DNA from: Flavobacterium turcicum
Lineage (GTDB): Bacteria > Bacteroidota > Bacteroidia > Flavobacteriales > Flavobacteriaceae
Reading direction: 5' to 3'
NCBI RefSeq assembly: GCF_011365745.1
Contig: NZ_JAAOBY010000003.1
Span: 248,001 to 312,000, forward strand
DNA: 64,000 nucleotides
The notes under the pieces: generated by a model
Told to the model about the DNA's origin: nothing
The model's input: the letters and a program-made list of their open reading frames with translations, nothing else
Database searches by the model: none
Translations under genes and position numbers: made by a program
Shown: positions 42,830-51,686 of the stretch, piece after piece
Position numbering within the stretch: position 1 is the stretch's first letter
How the letters are laid out: every line of letters starts with the position of its first letter

Positions 42830-44011
42830 TTACAAAAGTTCGAAAACACCCGCAGAACCTTGACCAGTTCCTACGCACATAGAAACAATTCCGTATTTGC
42901 TACCGCGGCGTTGCATTTCGTCAAATAATTGAACAGAAAGTTTAGCACCTGTACATCCTAGAGGATGACCTAATGCAATTGCTCCACCATTCACGTTAAT
43001 AATTTCTGGGTTCAAATCAAGTTCACGAGTTACAGCTAATGCTTGAGATGCAAAAGCTTCATTAAGCTCAATTAAATCAATATCATTAATTGTTAAACCT
43101 GCTTGTTTTAAAACTTTTGGAATTGCTTTTACTGGTCCAATACCCATAATTCTTGGCTCTACGCCAGCTGATGCAAAATTTACTAATCGTGCAATTGGTG
43201 TAATGTTCAATTCTTTCACCATTTCTTCGCTCATGATCAAAACAAAAGCAGCTCCATCACTCATTTGTGATGAATTTCCTGCAGTAACACTACCATTTGC
43301 TTCAAAAACAGGACGCAATCCAGCCAAAGCTTCTTTTGATGTACCAGCTCTTGGACCTTCGTCTTTATTTACAACGTATGATTTGGTTTCTTTTTTTCCA
43401 TTTTCATTTAAATACGTTTGCTCTACAGTAATTGGTACAATTTGTTTGTCAAATTTTCCGTCTGCTTGTGCTTGCAATGCTTTCATGTGAGAGTTGTAAG
43501 CAAACTCATCCTGGTCTTCACGAGATACTTTAAACTGTTGTGCTACAGCTTCGGCAGTTAATCCCATTCCCCAGTAGTAGTCTTCGTTTCCTGCTTTTGC
43601 TACAGCATAATCAGGAGTTGGCTTGTAACCTCCCATTGGAATAAAACTCATGCTTTCTGCTCCACCTGCAATAATGCAGTGTGCCATTCCTGATTGGATT
43701 TTAGCAGTCGCCATTCCAATTGTTTCAAGACCAGAGGCACAATATCTATTTACAGTAACTCCAGGAACATCCTCTACTTTTAATCCCATTAAGGAAATTA
43801 ATCGAGCTACGTTTAAACCTTGTTCAGCTTCCGGCATGGCATTACCTACCATTACGTCATCGATGCGTGTTTTATCAAAATCAGGCAACTCGTTCATCAT
43901 GAATTCGATGGTTTCTGCTGCCAATTCATCAGGTCTTTTAAATCTAAAAACTCCCTTTGGTGCTTTACCAACTGCAGTTCTGTATGCTTTTACGATATAG
44001 GCTGTTTTCAT
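42830..44011 (-). CDS. fadA: Acetyl-CoA C-acyltransferase (3-ketoacyl-CoA thiolase)
   Basis: The 393-residue thiolase cleaves 3-ketoacyl-CoA to acetyl-CoA. The start is ATG 44011 (MKTAYIVKAYRTAVG); a further 12 codons upstream are open but not conserved-looking. The nucleophilic Cys lies in NRYCASGLETI (about residue 90), with the C-terminal ALGHPLGCTGAK and CVGTGQG holding the His and Cys acid/base residues. It sits between fadN and fadE with short gaps, in the same order as the B. subtilis fadNAE operon. Confidence 0.96.
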   Translation of the reverse strand: MKTAYIVKAYRTAVGKAPKGVFRFKRPDELAAETIEFMMNELPDFDKTRIDDVMVGNAMPEAEQGLNVARLISLMGLKVEDVPGVTVNRYCASGLETIGMATAKIQSGMAHCIIAGGAESMSFIPMGGYKPTPDYAVAKAGNEDYYWGMGLTAEAVAQQFKVSREDQDEFAYNSHMKALQAQADGKFDKQIVPITVEQTYLNENGKKETKSYVVNKDEGPRAGTSKEALAGLRPVFEANGSVTAGNSSQMSDGAAFVLIMSEEMVKELNITPIARLVNFASAGVEPRIMGIGPVKAIPKVLKQAGLTINDIDLIELNEAFASQALAVTRELDLNPEIINVNGGAIALGHPLGCTGAKLSVQLFDEMQRRGSKYGIVSMCVGTGQGSAGVFELL

Positions 44012-44092
44012 AAGTATTATTTTGAATTTTGACTGATAAACTCTCAATGCATTACATTTTTTATTTATCAGTCATAATTTTTTAAGTTAAAA

Positions 44093-46483
44093 TTAATTAC
44101 GTAGCGGTTTCCCTTTAGTTAGCATAAATTGGATGCGCTCTAAAGTTTTTCTCTCTGTACAAAGTGATAAAAAGGCTTCTCTCTCAATGTCTAACAAGTA
44201 TTGCTCGCTTACTAAAGTTGGCTCAGATAAATCTCCTCCGGCCATTACGTAAGCTAATTTGTTAGCGATTTTTTTATCGTGTTCAGAGATGTACTTACCT
44301 GCTTGCATCTGATCTGTTCCTACTAAGAACATTCCTAATGCCTGCTTACCTAATACTTTAATGTCTTTACGTTGAATAGGTTGTGTGTAACCTGCTTCGG
44401 CCATTAACAATGCGTGTTTTTTAGCTTCAGCGATCTGACGATCTTTGTTTACTACAATGATGTCTTTACCATGTTGTAACAATCCTGTATCAAAAGCCTC
44501 ATAACCAGAAGTAGATACTTTTGCCATAGCAATCGTCAAGAAGTACTCTTGTAATACATTCAACTCCACGTCGTTTTTATGAAATAAATCAGCAGCACGT
44601 AATGTCAATTCTTTTGATCCACCACCACCAGGAATAACACCTACACCAAACTCTACAAGTCCCATGTAAGTCTCTGCCGCAGCAACAACTTTGTCAGCAT
44701 GCAAACTCATTTCGCAACCACCACCAAACGTCATTCCGTGAGGAGCAACTACAACTGGAATTCCAGAGTAACGCACGCGCATCATGGTGTCTTGGAACAT
44801 TTTGATTGCCATATTCAACTCATCATACTCTTGCTCTACAGCCATCATGAAAATCATACCAATATTTGCTCCAACTGAGAAATTGGCAGCTTGATTTCCA
44901 ATAACCAAACCTTGATATTCTTTTTCAGCTAAATCAATCCCTTTATTGATAGCTTGTAAAACATCGCCACCAATAGTATTCATTTTTGATTGGAATTCTA
45001 GGTTTAAAATTCCGTCTCCTAAATCTTGAATAATGGCTCCGCTGTTGCTCCAAACTTTTTTGCTTTCGCGAATGTTGTTCAAAATGATAAATGCATCTTG
45101 TCCAGGAACTTTGATCTGATTTTTGGTAGGAATGTTGTAAAAGTAAGTAGCACCTTCTTTTACAGTATAAAAACTGTTGCTTCCAGAAGCTAACATTTCT
45201 TCAACCCAAGCAGCAGGAGTTACACCTTCCGCTTTCATGATTTCAATTCCATCTGCAACACCAATTGCATCCCAAATTTCGAATGGACCATTTTCCCATC
45301 CAAAACCTGCTTTCATTGCATCGTCTATCTTGTACAATTCGTCTGCTATTTCAGGAATACGGTTTGAAACGTAAGCAAATAAACCTGCAAAACTCTTTCT
45401 ATAAAATTCCCCAGCTTTGTCTTTTCCTTTTACTAAAACTTTAAAACGGTTGATTGGTTTATCAATAGTTTTAGTTAACTCTAAAGTTCCAAATGATGCT
45501 TTTTTAGCAGCTCTGTAGGTTAAAGTATCTAAATCAAGTGTAAGGATTTCTTTTCCTTCTTTTTTGTAAAAACCTTGACCAGTTTTACTACCTAGCCATT
45601 TGTTTTCCATCATTTTGCTTACAAATGTCGGCAGTTTAAACAAATCATGTTGCTCATCGGTTGGGCAGTTTTCATAAATACCGTTGGCAACGTGTACCAG
45701 AGTATCCAAGCCAACAACATCAACAGTTCTAAAAGTTGCTGATTTTGGTCGACCAATAACTGGTCCAGTCAATTTATCAACTTCTTCAATGGTTAATCCC
45801 ATTTCCTGAACTAGGTGGAATAAACTTTGGATGCCGTAAATACCAATTCTATTTCCAATAAATGCTGGTGTATCTTTAGCAAGAACCGACGTTTTTCCTA
45901 AAAATTTCTCTCCATAAATAGTTAAGAAGTCAAGAACTTCAGTTGAAGTGTGAGGCCCTGGAATAATTTCGAATAATTTTAAGTAACGCGCAGGGTTGAA
46001 AAAGTGAGTTCCACAAAAATGTTTCTGGAAATCTTCACTACGACCTTCACTCATAAAATGAATCGGAATACCAGATGTGTTTGAAGTAACCAATGTACCT
46101 GGTTTTCTGAATTTTTCAATTTGCTCAAAAACAAGTTTTTTAACATCCAATCGCTCCACAACTACTTCAATAATCCAATCAACACCAGCAATTTTTGCCA
46201 TGTCATCAGTCGTATTTCCAGTTGTAATGCGGCTTGCAAATTTTTGACTGTAAATAGGGGATGGTTTCGATTTTAACGAATTGGCTAGACTATCATTTAC
46301 CAAACGATTTCTAACAATTTTACTCTCTAATGTCAAGCCTTTTTTTGCTTCGGCCTCCGTTAATTCTCTCGGCACGATATCCAAGAGTAAAACTTCAACT
46401 CCGATGTTAGCAAAATGGCAAGCAATTCCAGAACCCATGATTCCAGACCCAATTACTGCAACTTTTTTAATGGTGCGTTTCAT
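44093..46483 (-). CDS. fadN: 3-hydroxyacyl-CoA dehydrogenase/enoyl-CoA hydratase fusion (FadN type)
   Basis: The 796-residue bifunctional protein has the NAD-binding 3-hydroxyacyl-CoA dehydrogenase first (VIGSGIMGSGIACHFA at residues 10-25, HFFNPARY near 160) and the crotonase domain last (GMTFGGGCEMSLHAD and GVGVIPGGGGSKEL, about residues 580-630). This order is opposite to E. coli FadB/FadJ and matches B. subtilis FadN. It catalyses hydration and NAD-dependent oxidation in beta-oxidation and is followed by fadA and fadE. Confidence 0.95.
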   Translation of the reverse strand: MKRTIKKVAVIGSGIMGSGIACHFANIGVEVLLLDIVPRELTEAEAKKGLTLESKIVRNRLVNDSLANSLKSKPSPIYSQKFASRITTGNTTDDMAKIAGVDWIIEVVVERLDVKKLVFEQIEKFRKPGTLVTSNTSGIPIHFMSEGRSEDFQKHFCGTHFFNPARYLKLFEIIPGPHTSTEVLDFLTIYGEKFLGKTSVLAKDTPAFIGNRIGIYGIQSLFHLVQEMGLTIEEVDKLTGPVIGRPKSATFRTVDVVGLDTLVHVANGIYENCPTDEQHDLFKLPTFVSKMMENKWLGSKTGQGFYKKEGKEILTLDLDTLTYRAAKKASFGTLELTKTIDKPINRFKVLVKGKDKAGEFYRKSFAGLFAYVSNRIPEIADELYKIDDAMKAGFGWENGPFEIWDAIGVADGIEIMKAEGVTPAAWVEEMLASGSNSFYTVKEGATYFYNIPTKNQIKVPGQDAFIILNNIRESKKVWSNSGAIIQDLGDGILNLEFQSKMNTIGGDVLQAINKGIDLAEKEYQGLVIGNQAANFSVGANIGMIFMMAVEQEYDELNMAIKMFQDTMMRVRYSGIPVVVAPHGMTFGGGCEMSLHADKVVAAAETYMGLVEFGVGVIPGGGGSKELTLRAADLFHKNDVELNVLQEYFLTIAMAKVSTSGYEAFDTGLLQHGKDIIVVNKDRQIAEAKKHALLMAEAGYTQPIQRKDIKVLGKQALGMFLVGTDQMQAGKYISEHDKKIANKLAYVMAGGDLSEPTLVSEQYLLDIEREAFLSLCTERKTLERIQFMLTKGKPLRN

Positions 46484-46559
46484 ACTTATTTTAATTTGTT
46501 TCTGAGCTGTAGTCTATTGCAGTTTTTTCTGAATTTCCTACAAACCCTATTAATGTTGT

Positions 46560-47045
46560 TTATGATTGTGTTTGGTTTACCAATTCACCCTTAGCTTCTG
46601 AATGTTCAATTGTTGTGAAAATATTTTTGTCGACAATCAGTTCATTGATAATCTCAGCTACTTCTATAAAATGCTGTAATTTTTCGTCTGAAACATGCGC
46701 TTTTACAGCTTCATTAAATTTCAGAACAGTATTTTTTGATAAATCTCTTTTTTCTTTTCCAAAAGGAGTCAAATAAATTAATACACCACGGCCATCCTCT
46801 GGATTTTTTTTCCTAATGATTAGTCCTTTCTCTTCCATAGATTTTAATGTTCTGGTTAAGCTAGTGGCTTCCATTCCCATTTTTGGTCCCAAAGAAGTAG
46901 AGGGTGTGCCACCTTCCTTATCTATACTCAACAAAGCAAAACCTGTTGCCATACTAGCATCGTACTTCGAAGCCTCTTCGTTGTACATTCTTGCAACGGC
47001 TTGCCAAGTGGCACGTAAAATATAATCTATCGTTTTTTCTTTCAT
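46560..47045 (-). CDS. MarR family regulator of the fad operon
   Basis: The 161-residue winged-helix protein has the MarR DNA-binding core (LTRTLKSMEEKGLIIRKKNPEDGRGVLIYLTPFGKEKRD, about residues 64-105). It leads the operon with fadN, fadA and fadE, separated from fadN by 76 bases. A palindrome TATGCACGCATA upstream overlaps its own promoter, so autoregulation with release by an acyl-CoA ligand is plausible. Ligand and sign of control are inferred from context. Confidence 0.9.
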   Translation of the reverse strand: MKEKTIDYILRATWQAVARMYNEEASKYDASMATGFALLSIDKEGGTPSTSLGPKMGMEATSLTRTLKSMEEKGLIIRKKNPEDGRGVLIYLTPFGKEKRDLSKNTVLKFNEAVKAHVSDEKLQHFIEVAEIINELIVDKNIFTTIEHSEAKGELVNQTQS

Positions 47046-47576: not shown

Positions 47577-48176
47577 CTAAATAGCCTCGATAACATCTAC
47601 AATTTCTAATCTACTTTTAGGTTTGCGGTCTGGTTGGTTGGAGTCATTTTCATCTCTGAGTCCTATAGCAACTGCAAATACAGCAGAGTAGTCCTTTAAT
47701 TTTAAAATAGCGTTGTATTCCTTACTATTTATTCCTTCCATGGGCGTAGAATCAATAGACATACTAGCACATGCACTCAAGAAAAAGCCTAGAGAGAGAT
47801 ATACTTGATTGTGAAACCATGATTTTATAGCGTCCTCAGGTAATGGTTTTATGAACTGATTGTAATAGCCAATTGCTCCTTCTGGAAGGTTAGTGTTGAT
47901 TTGATTTTCAAATTTTGAAATAGTATCGATGGCACAAAAAACTATCAAGTGACTTGCCTCTTTAATTTTTTGCTCATTAAAGAAGGAGACTTTCGCCAGT
48001 TGACTTTTGATTTCTTCGTTGGATATAAAAACAAATTTCCAAGGCTGACTATTGATAGAGGAAGGACTCAATCGCAGAATTTCTTGTAATTGTTCTATTT
48101 TACTATCAGATATTTTTTGTGCTGCGTTATACTTTTTAGTTGTATATCTATTTTTTGCTAAAGATGTAAATTCCAT
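47577..48176 (-). CDS. NAD(P)H-dependent nitroreductase/oxidoreductase (NfsB-like)
   Basis: The 199-residue FMN-binding protein has the nitroreductase fold. The N-terminus KNRYTTKKYNAAQKISDSKIEQLQEILRLSPSSINSQPWKFVFIS contains the conserved FMN-contacting RxTxKxY and SSxNxQPW motifs, and the C-terminal GLRDENDSNQPDRKPKSRLEIVDVIE closes the FMN site. Family members reduce quinones, nitroaromatics or related electrophiles. It lies 68 bases downstream of an MRJP-like gene, divergent from an HxlR regulator, an arrangement consistent with electrophile-induced detoxification. Confidence 0.92.
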   Translation of the reverse strand: MEFTSLAKNRYTTKKYNAAQKISDSKIEQLQEILRLSPSSINSQPWKFVFISNEEIKSQLAKVSFFNEQKIKEASHLIVFCAIDTISKFENQINTNLPEGAIGYYNQFIKPLPEDAIKSWFHNQVYLSLGFFLSACASMSIDSTPMEGINSKEYNAILKLKDYSAVFAVAIGLRDENDSNQPDRKPKSRLEIVDVIEAI

Positions 48177-48244
48177 TTTTATTATGTTTTATTTTTTTTA
48201 CTAATGAAGAAGATTCATTTTAGTGTCCTTTTTTTAAAACTGAC

Positions 48245-49324
48245 TTATTCTATTTTGAACTTGTATATGTAATATGGCGCTTTTCCTAAATCGGTTGTGC
48301 CAGTAAAAGCTACTGTTTTGTGTAATTGATTAACAGCAATGTAAAGATATTGTCCTTGGATACTAACGTTGTCTGGCCATAGTAACCTATTGTCGCGAAT
48401 CAACATTTGTAGTTTTTTGGTTTTAGTATTCCATTTATCAATACCCTTATCGTTTAAATTTGTAAAATAATGATCGCCATTTCTGCTGGTTGTTGCTCCA
48501 TCGGAAATAGGTTTTTTGCCTATTTTTTTTACCGTAGCCAAAATTTCTTTGTCACTTTTATTAGCTCTAATTGCTTTAGCAGAAATGCTGTACCAAGTTT
48601 TTCCATTCATAGCTCCGTAAAATATTGTTTCTTTATCCTCAGATATTGAAATTGGGTCAACTGCTACTCGAGATGGTTTGCCACCAAAATAAATGAATTC
48701 AGAGTCAATGACGGTGTTTACGTCCTCACTTAAAAAAGAGGGATGTTGTTGCAAACGTTTTGCTTCTTTGGTATTTAAGTTTAAAACTATTAAACCAGGA
48801 TTTGCAATATCTGCAAGGTATACAAAGCCATTTTTAATATCGACTACCAAATCTTGAACAAATGAATTGGGAGGTGCAATTGTAGTAGGAAAAGTAAATG
48901 TCAAAATGTTTTCTTTTGTAACTGGATCAAAAGCAAATAATCTGGTTTTACCAAAATTTACTCCCATGTCAATTACCCAAATATTGCCATTAACATCAGT
49001 TGTAATTCCTAAGGGTGTATCAAAGGTTTTTTCAGTAGGAGCTTGTCCATCTTTGCGTTGCCAACTTTGGTTTGGGAATGCTTCATACGTTGTTTTATCT
49101 TTTACAACAATTAACTGCATTGAGTGATTCCCAAAGGGGTGAATCGTTGAGAAAATCAAGCCTTTATTATTTACTGCAACGTTACCTGGTCGCATATTCA
49201 TTTCTAAAACGACTTCTAATTGATCTTCAACATTTTTTTTTTGTTGTGCGTATACATAATTTGTTGTGGATGTGAATATTGCTATTGCACCTACAAGAAA
49301 CGGAATTAAACTGGTTTTCTTCAT
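48245..49324 (-). CDS. Secreted major royal jelly/yellow-like beta-propeller protein
   Basis: The 359-residue product has a signal peptide (to VYAQ) and an MRJP/yellow-type six-bladed propeller: MRPGNVAVNNKGLIFSTIHPFG, PLGITTDVNGNIWVIDMG, VQDLVVDIKNGFVYLADIANPGLIV, and WPDNVSIQGQYLYIAVNQLH. In bacteria such proteins are often labelled 'L-dopachrome tautomerase-related'. The substrate is unknown. It is immediately divergent from hxlR, shares a promoter region with it, and is followed by a nitroreductase gene. Confidence 0.85.
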   Translation of the reverse strand: MKKTSLIPFLVGAIAIFTSTTNYVYAQQKKNVEDQLEVVLEMNMRPGNVAVNNKGLIFSTIHPFGNHSMQLIVVKDKTTYEAFPNQSWQRKDGQAPTEKTFDTPLGITTDVNGNIWVIDMGVNFGKTRLFAFDPVTKENILTFTFPTTIAPPNSFVQDLVVDIKNGFVYLADIANPGLIVLNLNTKEAKRLQQHPSFLSEDVNTVIDSEFIYFGGKPSRVAVDPISISEDKETIFYGAMNGKTWYSISAKAIRANKSDKEILATVKKIGKKPISDGATTSRNGDHYFTNLNDKGIDKWNTKTKKLQMLIRDNRLLWPDNVSIQGQYLYIAVNQLHKTVAFTGTTDLGKAPYYIYKFKIE

Positions 49325-49329
49325 TTTAT

Positions 49330-49346
49330 ACTATATTCTTTATAGT
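49330..49346. promoter_or_regulatory. Inverted repeat near the divergent promoters (candidate HxlR operator)
   Basis: ACTATA and TATAGT are separated by five bases, between the MRJP -7 box and its ATG. The half-site TATAG recurs around 49359, 49394 and 49411 across the hxlR-MRJP intergenic region. Confidence 0.4.
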
Positions 49347-49348
49347 TA

Positions 49349-49379
49349 CAAAATTAGGTATAGTTGTTTAACTTTGCAA
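49349..49379 (-). promoter_or_regulatory. Promoter of the MRJP-nitroreductase pair
   Basis: The minus strand reads TTG (49377-49379), 20 bases, then TAATTTTG (49349-49356), both matching the Bacteroidota consensus. The MRJP ATG lies 25 bases downstream. Confidence 0.7.
49369..49376 (+). promoter_or_regulatory. -7 element of hxlR overlapping the divergent promoter
   Basis: TAACTTTG is an exact TAnnTTTG match. It abuts the -33 box of the opposite promoter, and an imperfect -33 box (TTAC) lies 19 bases upstream. Confidence 0.55.
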
Positions 49380-49404
49380 TAACGGATAAAATGTATAGTA
49401 GTAG

Positions 49405-49749
49405 ATGTATTGTATAGATAATAAAGAATTTCCTTGTAGCACAAGCTTGACAATGAAATATATAGGTGGCAAATGGAAGGCTGTAATTCTTATTCACTTA
49501 ATTGAAAAAAAAAGGTATAATGAACTCCGAAAAGAACTTTCAATGGTTACGGAGCGAACAATCAGTCTTCAATTAAAGGAATTAGAAGCCGATGGTTTAG
49601 TAATTCGAACTGTTCATACTGCCAAACCACCTCTAAAAGTAGAGTATGAATTGACAGATTTTGGTAGAACATTAATTCCTTTACTTACCGCTATTGCAAA
49701 TTGGGGTGAAGATGCCGCGCGGAATAACAATCAAATTCAGATACTTTAA
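49405..49749 (+). CDS. HxlR family winged-helix regulator, probable redox/electrophile sensor
   Basis: The 114-residue protein is a complete HxlR domain (IGGKWKAVILIHL near residues 20-32, RYNELRKELSMVTERTISLQLKELEADGLVIR, DFGRTLIPLL). Cys11 (in FPCSTSL) is at the N-terminal position used by thiol-sensing members such as YodB/CatR/HypR, and a second Cys is at residue 3. It is divergent from the MRJP and nitroreductase genes with overlapping promoters, so it probably regulates both sides. Control of nitroreductases by HxlR regulators is known in Bacillus. Confidence 0.92.
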   Translation: MYCIDNKEFPCSTSLTMKYIGGKWKAVILIHLIEKKRYNELRKELSMVTERTISLQLKELEADGLVIRTVHTAKPPLKVEYELTDFGRTLIPLLTAIANWGEDAARNNNQIQIL

Positions 49750-49910: not shown

Positions 49911-51686
49911 TTAGCTGTAAATTTTATCAAACAAGTCAGCATATTTTTGTAGCAAAATTTTACGTTTTAATTTTAGAGTTGGCGTAAGCTCTCCACCTTC
50001 AATAGACCACACATCTGAGGTCAATTCAAAGCGTTTGATTTTTTCCCAATTTCCAAATTTCTCATTCAAAGAGTCTACTTCTTCTTGAATGCGCTCAATT
50101 ACTTGTGCATTTGTACTAATCTCTTTGTTGGTTTTACCAATATCGATTTTGTGTATATTTGCCCATTCGCGTAAAAAGTCAAAACTTGGTTGAATGAAAG
50201 CACCAGGCATTTTTTGGCCATCACCAATTACCATAATTTGCTCTATAAAGCGAGATTGCTTCATGGTATTTTCGATAGATTGTGGTGCAATGTATTTTCC
50301 TCCTGAAGTTTTAAACATTTCTTTTTTTCTATCGGTAATTTTTAAAAACCCATCGGAGTCAAATTCACCTATATCACCAGTATGAAAATAACCATCAATA
50401 ATTACCTCGTTGGTCAATGTTTCGTCTTTGTAATAGCCCATCATTACATTTTTACCTTTACATAGTATTTCACCATCCTCAGCTATTTTAACAGAAAGGT
50501 TCACAATTGGTTTTCCTACGGTACCTACACGAAAACCTTTGTTTCGAATATCGTTTACTGAGATTACAGGAGACGTTTCGGTTAAACCATAACCTTCCAT
50601 AACAGGAATTTGTGCTGCCGCAAATATTCTGGCTAGGCGTGGTTGTAATGCAGCACTACCAGAAACCATCAAATCGAGTTTTCCGCCAAGGCCTTCTTTC
50701 CATTTACTGAAAATTAGTTTTCTTGCAATTCCAAGTTGTAATTCGTACCAAATGCCGTTTTTACCGTAAGGTTGGTATTCTAAACCTAAATCAATAGCCC
50801 AGAAAAATAGTTTTTTCTTGATTCCAGTTAACTCAGTTCCTTTAGCATAAATTTTATCATATACTTTTTCGAGTAATCTAGGTACAGCAGTTATTACAGT
50901 AGGTTGTACCTCTTTAATATTATCACTAATTTTTTCGATAGATTCTCCAAAATAAATAGACACTCCATAATATTGATAGAGATACAAAATCATTCGTTCG
51001 AAAATGTGACAGATTGGTAAAAAACTCAAAGCCCTACTTTTACCTGCTTCGAAAGGGATACGAGGTGCGCTATCTAAAACATTTGAAACAATATTTTGAT
51101 GCGATAACATTACACCTTTTGGTTTTCCTGTAGTTCCTGAGGTATATATTATTGTAGCTAATTCCTCGGTAGTCACATTGTTTTTTCTTTCCTCTACTTC
51201 GTTTTGATTACCAGTATCGGAACCTAAATCAAGTACTGCCGTCCAATGTGCACTACCTTCAATAGTATTAAAGGAGTAAACTTCTTTTAACAAAGGAACT
51301 TTGTGTTTAATTAAATTTACTTTTCGTAACACCTCTAGATCTGAAACAAAACAATATATAACACCAGAATGGTTTAAAATATACTCGTAATCATCCTCAG
51401 AAATAGTAGGATAAATGGGTACGGTTTGCGCTCCTGTTTGTAGGACACCAATATCCATAATATTCCATTCTGTGCGATTGTTGGATGAAATCAGTGCAAT
51501 TTTATCGTTTTTCTGTACCCCAAGACGCAAAAGTCCTCGGGAAATGGCGTTTGCTTTGGCAATGTATTCTTGTGTTGAAGTTTTAATCCAGGTACCATCT
51601 TGCTTGCTTACTAAGGCATCTGGGATAGAATTGTATTTTTCCTGCTGATAATACGGAAAATCAAAGAGGCGTGTGATATTTATCAT
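49911..51686 (-). CDS. Long-chain acyl-CoA synthetase (AMP-forming)
   Basis: The 591-residue adenylate-forming enzyme activates long-chain fatty acids to acyl-CoA. Motifs are the P-loop YTSGTTGKPKGVMLSH (about residues 186-201), MEGYGLTETSP near 357, FHTGDIGEFDSDGFLKITDRKKEMFKTSGGKY (about 432-463) containing the hinge, and no C-terminal extension. The length and architecture match the FadD15-type, membrane-associated group common in Bacteroidota. It probably feeds the fadNAE products at 41-46 kb but is transcribed separately. Confidence 0.94.
   Translation of the reverse strand: MINITRLFDFPYYQQEKYNSIPDALVSKQDGTWIKTSTQEYIAKANAISRGLLRLGVQKNDKIALISSNNRTEWNIMDIGVLQTGAQTVPIYPTISEDDYEYILNHSGVIYCFVSDLEVLRKVNLIKHKVPLLKEVYSFNTIEGSAHWTAVLDLGSDTGNQNEVEERKNNVTTEELATIIYTSGTTGKPKGVMLSHQNIVSNVLDSAPRIPFEAGKSRALSFLPICHIFERMILYLYQYYGVSIYFGESIEKISDNIKEVQPTVITAVPRLLEKVYDKIYAKGTELTGIKKKLFFWAIDLGLEYQPYGKNGIWYELQLGIARKLIFSKWKEGLGGKLDLMVSGSAALQPRLARIFAAAQIPVMEGYGLTETSPVISVNDIRNKGFRVGTVGKPIVNLSVKIAEDGEILCKGKNVMMGYYKDETLTNEVIIDGYFHTGDIGEFDSDGFLKITDRKKEMFKTSGGKYIAPQSIENTMKQSRFIEQIMVIGDGQKMPGAFIQPSFDFLREWANIHKIDIGKTNKEISTNAQVIERIQEEVDSLNEKFGNWEKIKRFELTSDVWSIEGGELTPTLKLKRKILLQKYADLFDKIYS

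Follow-up and report, generated by a model that had tools for sequence, protein, structure and literature searches.

Why should a gene for an HxlR-type regulator, a propeller protein of the major royal jelly protein (MRJP)/yellow family and a nitroreductase stand around one short spacer, and to which signal would they respond? This question has been raised by a stretch of 64,000 nucleotides from Flavobacterium turcicum (contig NZ_JAAOBY010000003.1, positions 248,001 to 312,000; host genome of 3.4 Mb), which is called the window in the following and numbered from its first letter. From a divergent spacer of 80 bp, hxlR is read rightward, and mrjp followed by the nitroreductase gene (ntr) leftward. 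The three genes and their coordinates have been verified in the window:

47577..48176, minus strand: NfsB-like nitroreductase, gene 2 of the mrjp-ntr unit (PF00881, 68.3 bits, over the Pfam cut-off)
48245..49324, minus strand: MRJP/yellow-type propeller, gene 1 of the unit, with an N-terminal signal-like stretch (PF03022, 91.5 bits, cut-off 19.8)
49405..49749, plus strand: HxlR (DUF24/MarR-type) regulator with Cys3 and Cys11 (PF01638, 89.1 bits, cut-off 20.8)

Comparison with other genomes has identified hxlR divergent from a nitroreductase gene as the widespread, ordinary unit. At E ≤ 1e-30, orthologues of the window's HxlR are present at 49 places in 47 of 299 Flavobacterium genomes; 30 of these places have been taken as loci, of which 29 are readable. 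In 26 of these the nitroreductase gene is directly divergent, and the order MRJP then nitroreductase is confined to the window, G129 and G141, the last of which retains the triad with an MRJP 67% identical to the window's. The original prediction had called for a survey of the three families in other genomes; the pairing of HxlR and nitroreductase has come out of it as strong, and the triad as rare, with no MRJP standing between the two in those 26 loci. As MRJPs of at least 67% identity have been found in only 3 of 150 Flavobacterium genomes, the triad as a widespread unit has been rejected. Because related HxlR proteins (82-83% identity to the window's) face the nitroreductase directly elsewhere, insertion of MRJP into an older hxlR-nitroreductase pair appears to be the simplest reading, which rests on the comparison of loci and not on a tree of HxlR or of the nitroreductase.

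The spacer contains the following predicted elements:

49330..49346, no strand assigned: inverted repeat ACTATA-N5-TATAGT, probable HxlR operator, kept in orthologous and paralogous HxlR loci
49346..49348, plus strand: -33 box of the hxlR promoter, TTA here and TTG in 20 of 29 loci
49349..49356, minus strand: -7 box of the mrjp-ntr promoter, TAATTTTG (plus-strand reading CAAAATTA), TAnnTTTG in 28 of 29 loci
49358..49364, plus strand: GTATAGT half-site between the -7 boxes, its TATAGT part conserved in a 28-row consensus
49369..49376, plus strand: -7 box of the hxlR promoter, TAACTTTG, TAnnTTTG in 26 of 29 loci
49377..49379, minus strand: -33 box of the mrjp-ntr promoter, TTG (CAA on the plus strand), kept in 28 of 29 loci
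49393..49399, plus strand: GTATAGT half-site in the predicted hxlR leader, with ATAG conserved there in the same consensus

On the plus strand, TTA is directly followed by CAAAATTA and, further on, TAACTTTG directly by CAA, with both -33 boxes adjoining the -7 box of the opposite promoter. The two promoters are mirror images with two -33/-7 contacts, only one of which, that of the hxlR -7 box with the divergent -33 box, had been pointed out in the original prediction; its coordinates match, and the boxes concerned are kept in 26 to 28 of the 29 loci. TTG is the -33 element of Bacteroidota sigma-A promoters. For a flavobacterium, TAnnTTTG at -12 to -5 has been given as the -7 consensus in an excerpt of PMC9723704, and boxes placed in this way predict starts at 49344 (minus strand) for mrjp and 49381 (plus strand) for hxlR, from which each -33 triplet begins at -33; the window has accordingly been found to contain TAnnTTTG together with a -33 element in the arrangement of a Bacteroidota sigma-A promoter. 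The 29 loci have been aligned by a loose pattern (five substitutions allowed) that itself held the inverted repeat and the ntr-side -7 box, and therefore the hxlR-side count of 26/29 is the cleaner one; the nn positions vary, with five values per side. When the 80-nt spacer was shuffled 200,000 times, the paired boxes arose once and the inverted repeat 15 times. Simultaneous occupancy of both promoters by RNA polymerase would hardly be possible.

Counted from the predicted mrjp-ntr start, the inverted repeat extends from about -2 to +15, and it reaches the hxlR -33 box. The conserved operator spans both promoters, which agrees with the earlier suggestion that one bound protein could control the two. 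A 56-bp operator matrix, trained on 25 HxlR loci without MRJP, gives scores of 63.2 for the window, 84.1 for G141, 77.6 for F. davisii and 61.4 for Pedobacter yonginense, and of -13.9 or less for five one-strand shuffles of the window; the spacer has been compared in these relatives and in G129 as well. As a DNA pattern, the operator has been found at 42 places in 40 of 397 Flavobacteriaceae genomes, where the reversed pattern gives none, and the mirrored promoter-operator is present in 35 of 237 Flavobacteriaceae genera sampled. Thirty of the 42 places, the window included, have been read, and HxlR lies on the expected side in 29 of them, within 400 bp in 28 and with a frame beginning at 425 bp in L173. 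The repeat has also been sought in 20 more regions, which come from other genera and the host genome and overlap with the 30 loci at least in L174 and L175; it is present in eight, including seven of ten divergent hxlR-nitroreductase pairs, and is lacking at the two other HxlR genes of the host genome, which are of different HxlR subfamilies. At the level of sequence comparison, the promoter-operator is well supported.

Within the host genome, the exact ACTATA-N5-TATAGT occurs as a single copy. A wider operator regulon has been set aside there, as allowing up to one mismatch gives 10 places with the exact one counted, against 39 in the reversed control, and these look like background. Two copies of the inverted repeat have been observed in the longer spacer between divergent hxlR and nitroreductase genes of L071, and two copies also in L149, L154 and L156. 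The cassette of F. davisii (L023) seems decayed, since no hxlR frame is present and the nitroreductase and propeller frames are apparently interrupted; its operator score is still high.

We hold it moderately probable that a YodB/HypR-like HxlR represses hxlR and mrjp-ntr and that the propeller extends a detoxification of electrophiles or quinones beyond the cytoplasm. The HxlR (DUF24) repressor, bound to the symmetric operator-promoter, would hold down both hxlR and the divergent mrjp-nitroreductase unit until a thiol-reactive signal (a quinone, diamide-like oxidant, reactive carbonyl or hypochlorite-like oxidant) modifies Cys11; the modified protein would then release the DNA, and both transcripts would increase. 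The nitroreductase would reduce the electrophile in the cytoplasm, and the promoter-proximal propeller, probably secreted, may handle the same class of compounds or their products outside. We infer here the repression, the sensing by Cys11, the class of inducer and the secretion and substrate of the propeller. Repression would suit the operator site, because the repeat lies across the predicted start of mrjp and extends to the hxlR -33 box. The leftward genes are separated by 68 nt and, because the minus strand between 48520 and the nitroreductase start, this gap included, contains no TAnnTTTG, they probably share a transcript.

The propeller has been modelled with AlphaFold2 from eight sequences (predicted local distance difference test score, pLDDT, 88). 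Its top structural match is the uncharacterised cyanobacterial protein 2qe8 (Z 43.7, 30% identity), followed by the Aedes dopachrome conversion enzyme 9w1k (Z 36.2, 16% identity), MRJP1 5yyl (Z 35.8) and a sand fly salivary protein (Z 33.2), with identities to the insect proteins of 15-18%; other propellers match at Z 28.8 and below, with SMP-30-type lactonases lower in Z. The closest folds with a named function in this model are the dopachrome conversion enzyme and the royal jelly protein. Of the yellow/dopachrome-type propeller originally proposed, the fold family has thus been borne out by the model; an action on catechols or quinones and an induction by electrophiles are putative. Its N-terminal sequence, as read by eye, suggests that it is probably secreted. 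Literature searches have returned neither an active-site description for insect dopachrome conversion nor an assigned function for a bacterial MRJP/yellow protein. A bacterial source has been proposed for the insect family (excerpt of PMC6678240).

MRJP genes are patchy, occurring in 35 of 299 Flavobacteriaceae genomes and in 19 of 296 genomes sampled from the phylum as a whole. Outside Flavobacterium, in 34 genomes of the family, MRJP lies within 6 kb of a nitroreductase at 9 of 46 places (0.62 expected) and within 6 kb of an HxlR at 4 of 46 (0.48 expected), where P values are rough, as the place lists have been copied by hand, uniform placement is assumed and several of the nine are syntenic relatives. 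Among 91 MRJP loci, uncorrected for kinship, the recurring neighbours are AraC (21), zinc dehydrogenases (17), SDRs (short-chain dehydrogenases/reductases, 17), nitroreductases (14), HxlR (12), aldo-keto reductases (12) and glyoxalase-like proteins (8). An accessory region of Pantoea ananatis (onion virulence region B table, in an excerpt of PMC5817063) likewise has an AraC-type regulator next to its MRJP gene, together with other enzymes for small molecules.

In an MRJP tree of 96 rows, from which the F. davisii MRJP, whose open frame is shorter than 300 aa, has been omitted, eight operator rows fall in two places. The window's clade comprises L024, L036, L037 and L038 (100/99) and has MRJP placed between operator and nitroreductase. 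The far clade of 12 rows (100/100) contains L071, L087, L095 and L111 under the operator, together with rows in which no operator has been found. Mapped against ten nitroreductase-only rows, the operator label requires five changes, of which strongly supported branches force at least three, and the operator-labelled MRJPs form one group in none of 200 bootstrap trees. These trees leave room for a recruitment of MRJP under the operator more than once. In L095 and L071, hxlR is divergent from nitroreductase-(dehydrogenase)-cupin-(DUF4437)-mrjp. The operator precedes nitroreductase-cupin-DUF4437-mrjp in L087 (9264-9319) and lies about 150 bp before mrjp in L111 (7149-7204), and the lack of an adjoining HxlR in both suggests that the regulator acts in trans or has been lost.

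Several arrangements of MRJP with other domains have been observed. MRJP stands in one frame with an N-terminal cupin in L039 (5885-7306), L099 (5344-6756), L040 (5971-7482) and L042 (5968-7455), as assigned by Pfam for L039 and by sequence for the other three; L039 and L099 fall near the window's MRJP in the tree. A separate cupin-like gene lies beside MRJP in eight loci (L041, L055, L061, L071, L087, L089, L094 and L095, with Pfam on L095 only), and L063 (5155-7152) appears by eye to join the propeller in one frame to a C-terminal TIM barrel of sugar-isomerase type. As a tentative and rather doubtful generalisation, yellow-type propellers, often with a neighbouring cupin and sometimes fused to one, may form the extracytoplasmic arm of a thiol-sensing regulon, in which they would convert electrophiles resembling quinones or catechols on the outer side of the inner membrane, with nitroreductases and quinone reductases acting on what enters, and may have been recruited repeatedly under one conserved operator.

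The same distribution bears on the possibility that the propeller is a passenger, that is, an extracytoplasmic enzyme of lactonase or sugar type that has come to stand behind a regulated promoter by chance and whose substrate would be unrelated to that of the nitroreductase. The rarity of the triad, the likeness to SMP-30-type lactonases, at lower Z, and the varied neighbours of other bacterial MRJPs would fit such an origin, but a distant MRJP clade is also under the operator (L071, L087, L095, L111), the linkage of MRJP to nitroreductases exceeds uniform expectation, and the triad has been kept in G141, as has hxlR-operator-mrjp in Pedobacter (65% identity). We regard the passenger as a rather unlikely explanation.

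The genes under the operator bear on the nature of the inducer. At the 30 operator loci, the divergent gene encodes a nitroreductase in 21, a zinc-type dehydrogenase in six, an SDR in one, an enoyl-CoA hydratase-like protein in one and MRJP in one, the window. Of the six dehydrogenases, three have been assigned by eye and three with Pfam and NCBIfam. Among the latter, PIG3 quinone oxidoreductase is the top NCBIfam model for two, at scores short of its cut-off; the remaining one clears the cut-off of a zinc-binding alcohol dehydrogenase family. A response to electrophiles or quinones fits, because the same operator precedes zinc-type dehydrogenases of which two of the three are quinone-reductase-like. 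A reactive carbonyl or aldehyde, as for the HxlR of Bacillus subtilis, might instead be the inducer: the operator also precedes zinc-type dehydrogenases and an SDR, and glyoxalase-like (8/91) and aldo-keto reductase (12/91) families recur near MRJPs. The predominance of nitroreductases among the targets (21/30) and the PIG3 likeness, below cut-off, speak against a carbonyl, which appears improbable to about the same degree as the passenger.

The preferred reading of HxlR as a thiol-switched repressor depends further on its cysteines, which are Cys3 and Cys11 only. The nearest solved chain is HypR/YybR (4a5m), in which Cys14 is aligned with Cys11 and Cys49 is the second cysteine for an intersubunit disulfide. 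Cys11 is found in all 29 readable Flavobacterium orthologues and corresponds to the N-terminal sensor cysteine of the thiol-switch DUF24 group. Cys45 is present in six of the 29 (L119, L122-L125, L127), which strengthens the likeness to HypR; judged by alignment, HypR's cysteine pair is complete in part of the clade but not in the window's protein. Sensing by Cys11, if real, would be a one-cysteine process (alkylation, mixed disulfide) or would involve the poorly conserved Cys3. As sensing residues, excerpts of the literature name HypR Cys14, CatR Cys7 and YodB Cys6, with the YodC nitroreductase as a target (PMC6943732), and QsrR Cys5, with nitroreductases reducing quinones (PMC6798810).

Several observations weigh against this reading. 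Leu45 faces HypR Cys49, and a C-terminal cysteine like YodB 101/108, the second cysteines for an intersubunit disulfide in YodB (excerpt of PMC6798810), is missing; Cys3 is shared by no more than 7 of the 29 loci. Of 20 HxlR proteins drawn from several subfamilies, 15 have a cysteine at position 11, and Cys11 as a mark specific to YodB/CatR has therefore been rejected; the earlier placement of Cys11 at a YodB/CatR-like sensor position stands as far as the alignment with HypR Cys14 is concerned. The repeat is absent from three of the ten divergent hxlR-nitroreductase pairs, which are of other HxlR subfamilies, and from L161, whose HxlR is of the right type. Pedobacter yonginense has hxlR-operator-mrjp without an adjacent nitroreductase (MRJP 65% identical), and profiles have found neither HxlR nor nitroreductase in flanks of about 6 kb around the ten nearest MRJP loci outside Bacteroidota (L026-L035), where the neighbours in L034 include a deacetylase-like and a GNAT protein; from this comparison of loci, L022 has been left out as the same locus as L037. 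Finally, the sign of control could be opposite, because an excerpt of PMC6943732 describes HypR, to which the window's HxlR is closest among solved structures, as being activated and not inactivated. An activator acting as HypR does on hypO, whose modified form at the central half-site and the repeat would recruit or reposition polymerase at mrjp-ntr, could draw on this description, on both HypR-type cysteines in 6 of 29 orthologues and on the extra half-sites between the promoters and in the hxlR leader, but with the repeat over the predicted start, downstream of the -7 box, where polymerase would normally be blocked, and with no second cysteine in the window's HxlR, it is the least probable of the explanations considered.

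The neighbours of the cassette are a minus-strand MarR/3-hydroxyacyl-CoA dehydrogenase/thiolase group (42830-47045) and a minus-strand acyl-CoA ligase gene (49911-51686), with MarR named from Pfam and the others from translations by eye; the cassette looks as if it had been inserted into a neighbourhood of fatty-acid degradation.

In the open-access literature of PubMed Central, no paper linking HxlR with MRJP and a nitroreductase has been found. The tie of MRJP to nitroreductases and a redox-type regulator offers concrete candidate inducers and substrates, the mirrored promoter-operator makes HxlR targets directly searchable, and a propeller within a redox pair hints at an extracellular step in the handling of reactive chemicals.

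Among known systems, the nitroreductase resembles the NfsB-type oxygen-insensitive enzymes by its PF00881 domain and by its best-scoring solved chains, which are oxygen-insensitive NAD(P)H nitroreductases/dihydropteridine reductases. Unlike the NfsB equivalogs, it reaches 148 bits with its best NCBIfam model (NF008275, oxygen-insensitive NAD(P)H nitroreductase), short of the cut-off of 227, so that it is by sequence a PF00881 member and at most a putative NfsB. The propeller shares PF03022 and its fold with yellow, the dopachrome conversion enzyme and the major royal jelly proteins, and differs from the insect yellow proteins in its low identity, in having the uncharacterised 2qe8 as its nearest solved relative and in that its activity is a putative one. 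As in HypR-hypO and YodB-yodC of B. subtilis and QsrR of Staphylococcus aureus, as far as the excerpted sources describe them, an HxlR/DUF24 regulator with an N-terminal cysteine is combined with targets of the nitroreductase-type flavoenzymes. Unlike in these systems, the genes stand here back to back on a mirrored -33/-7 promoter pair of Bacteroidota type, the window's HxlR has no second cysteine and a propeller gene is added. The cassette is thus the known pairing of a DUF24 regulator with a nitroreductase, to which the yellow-type propeller is the new addition.

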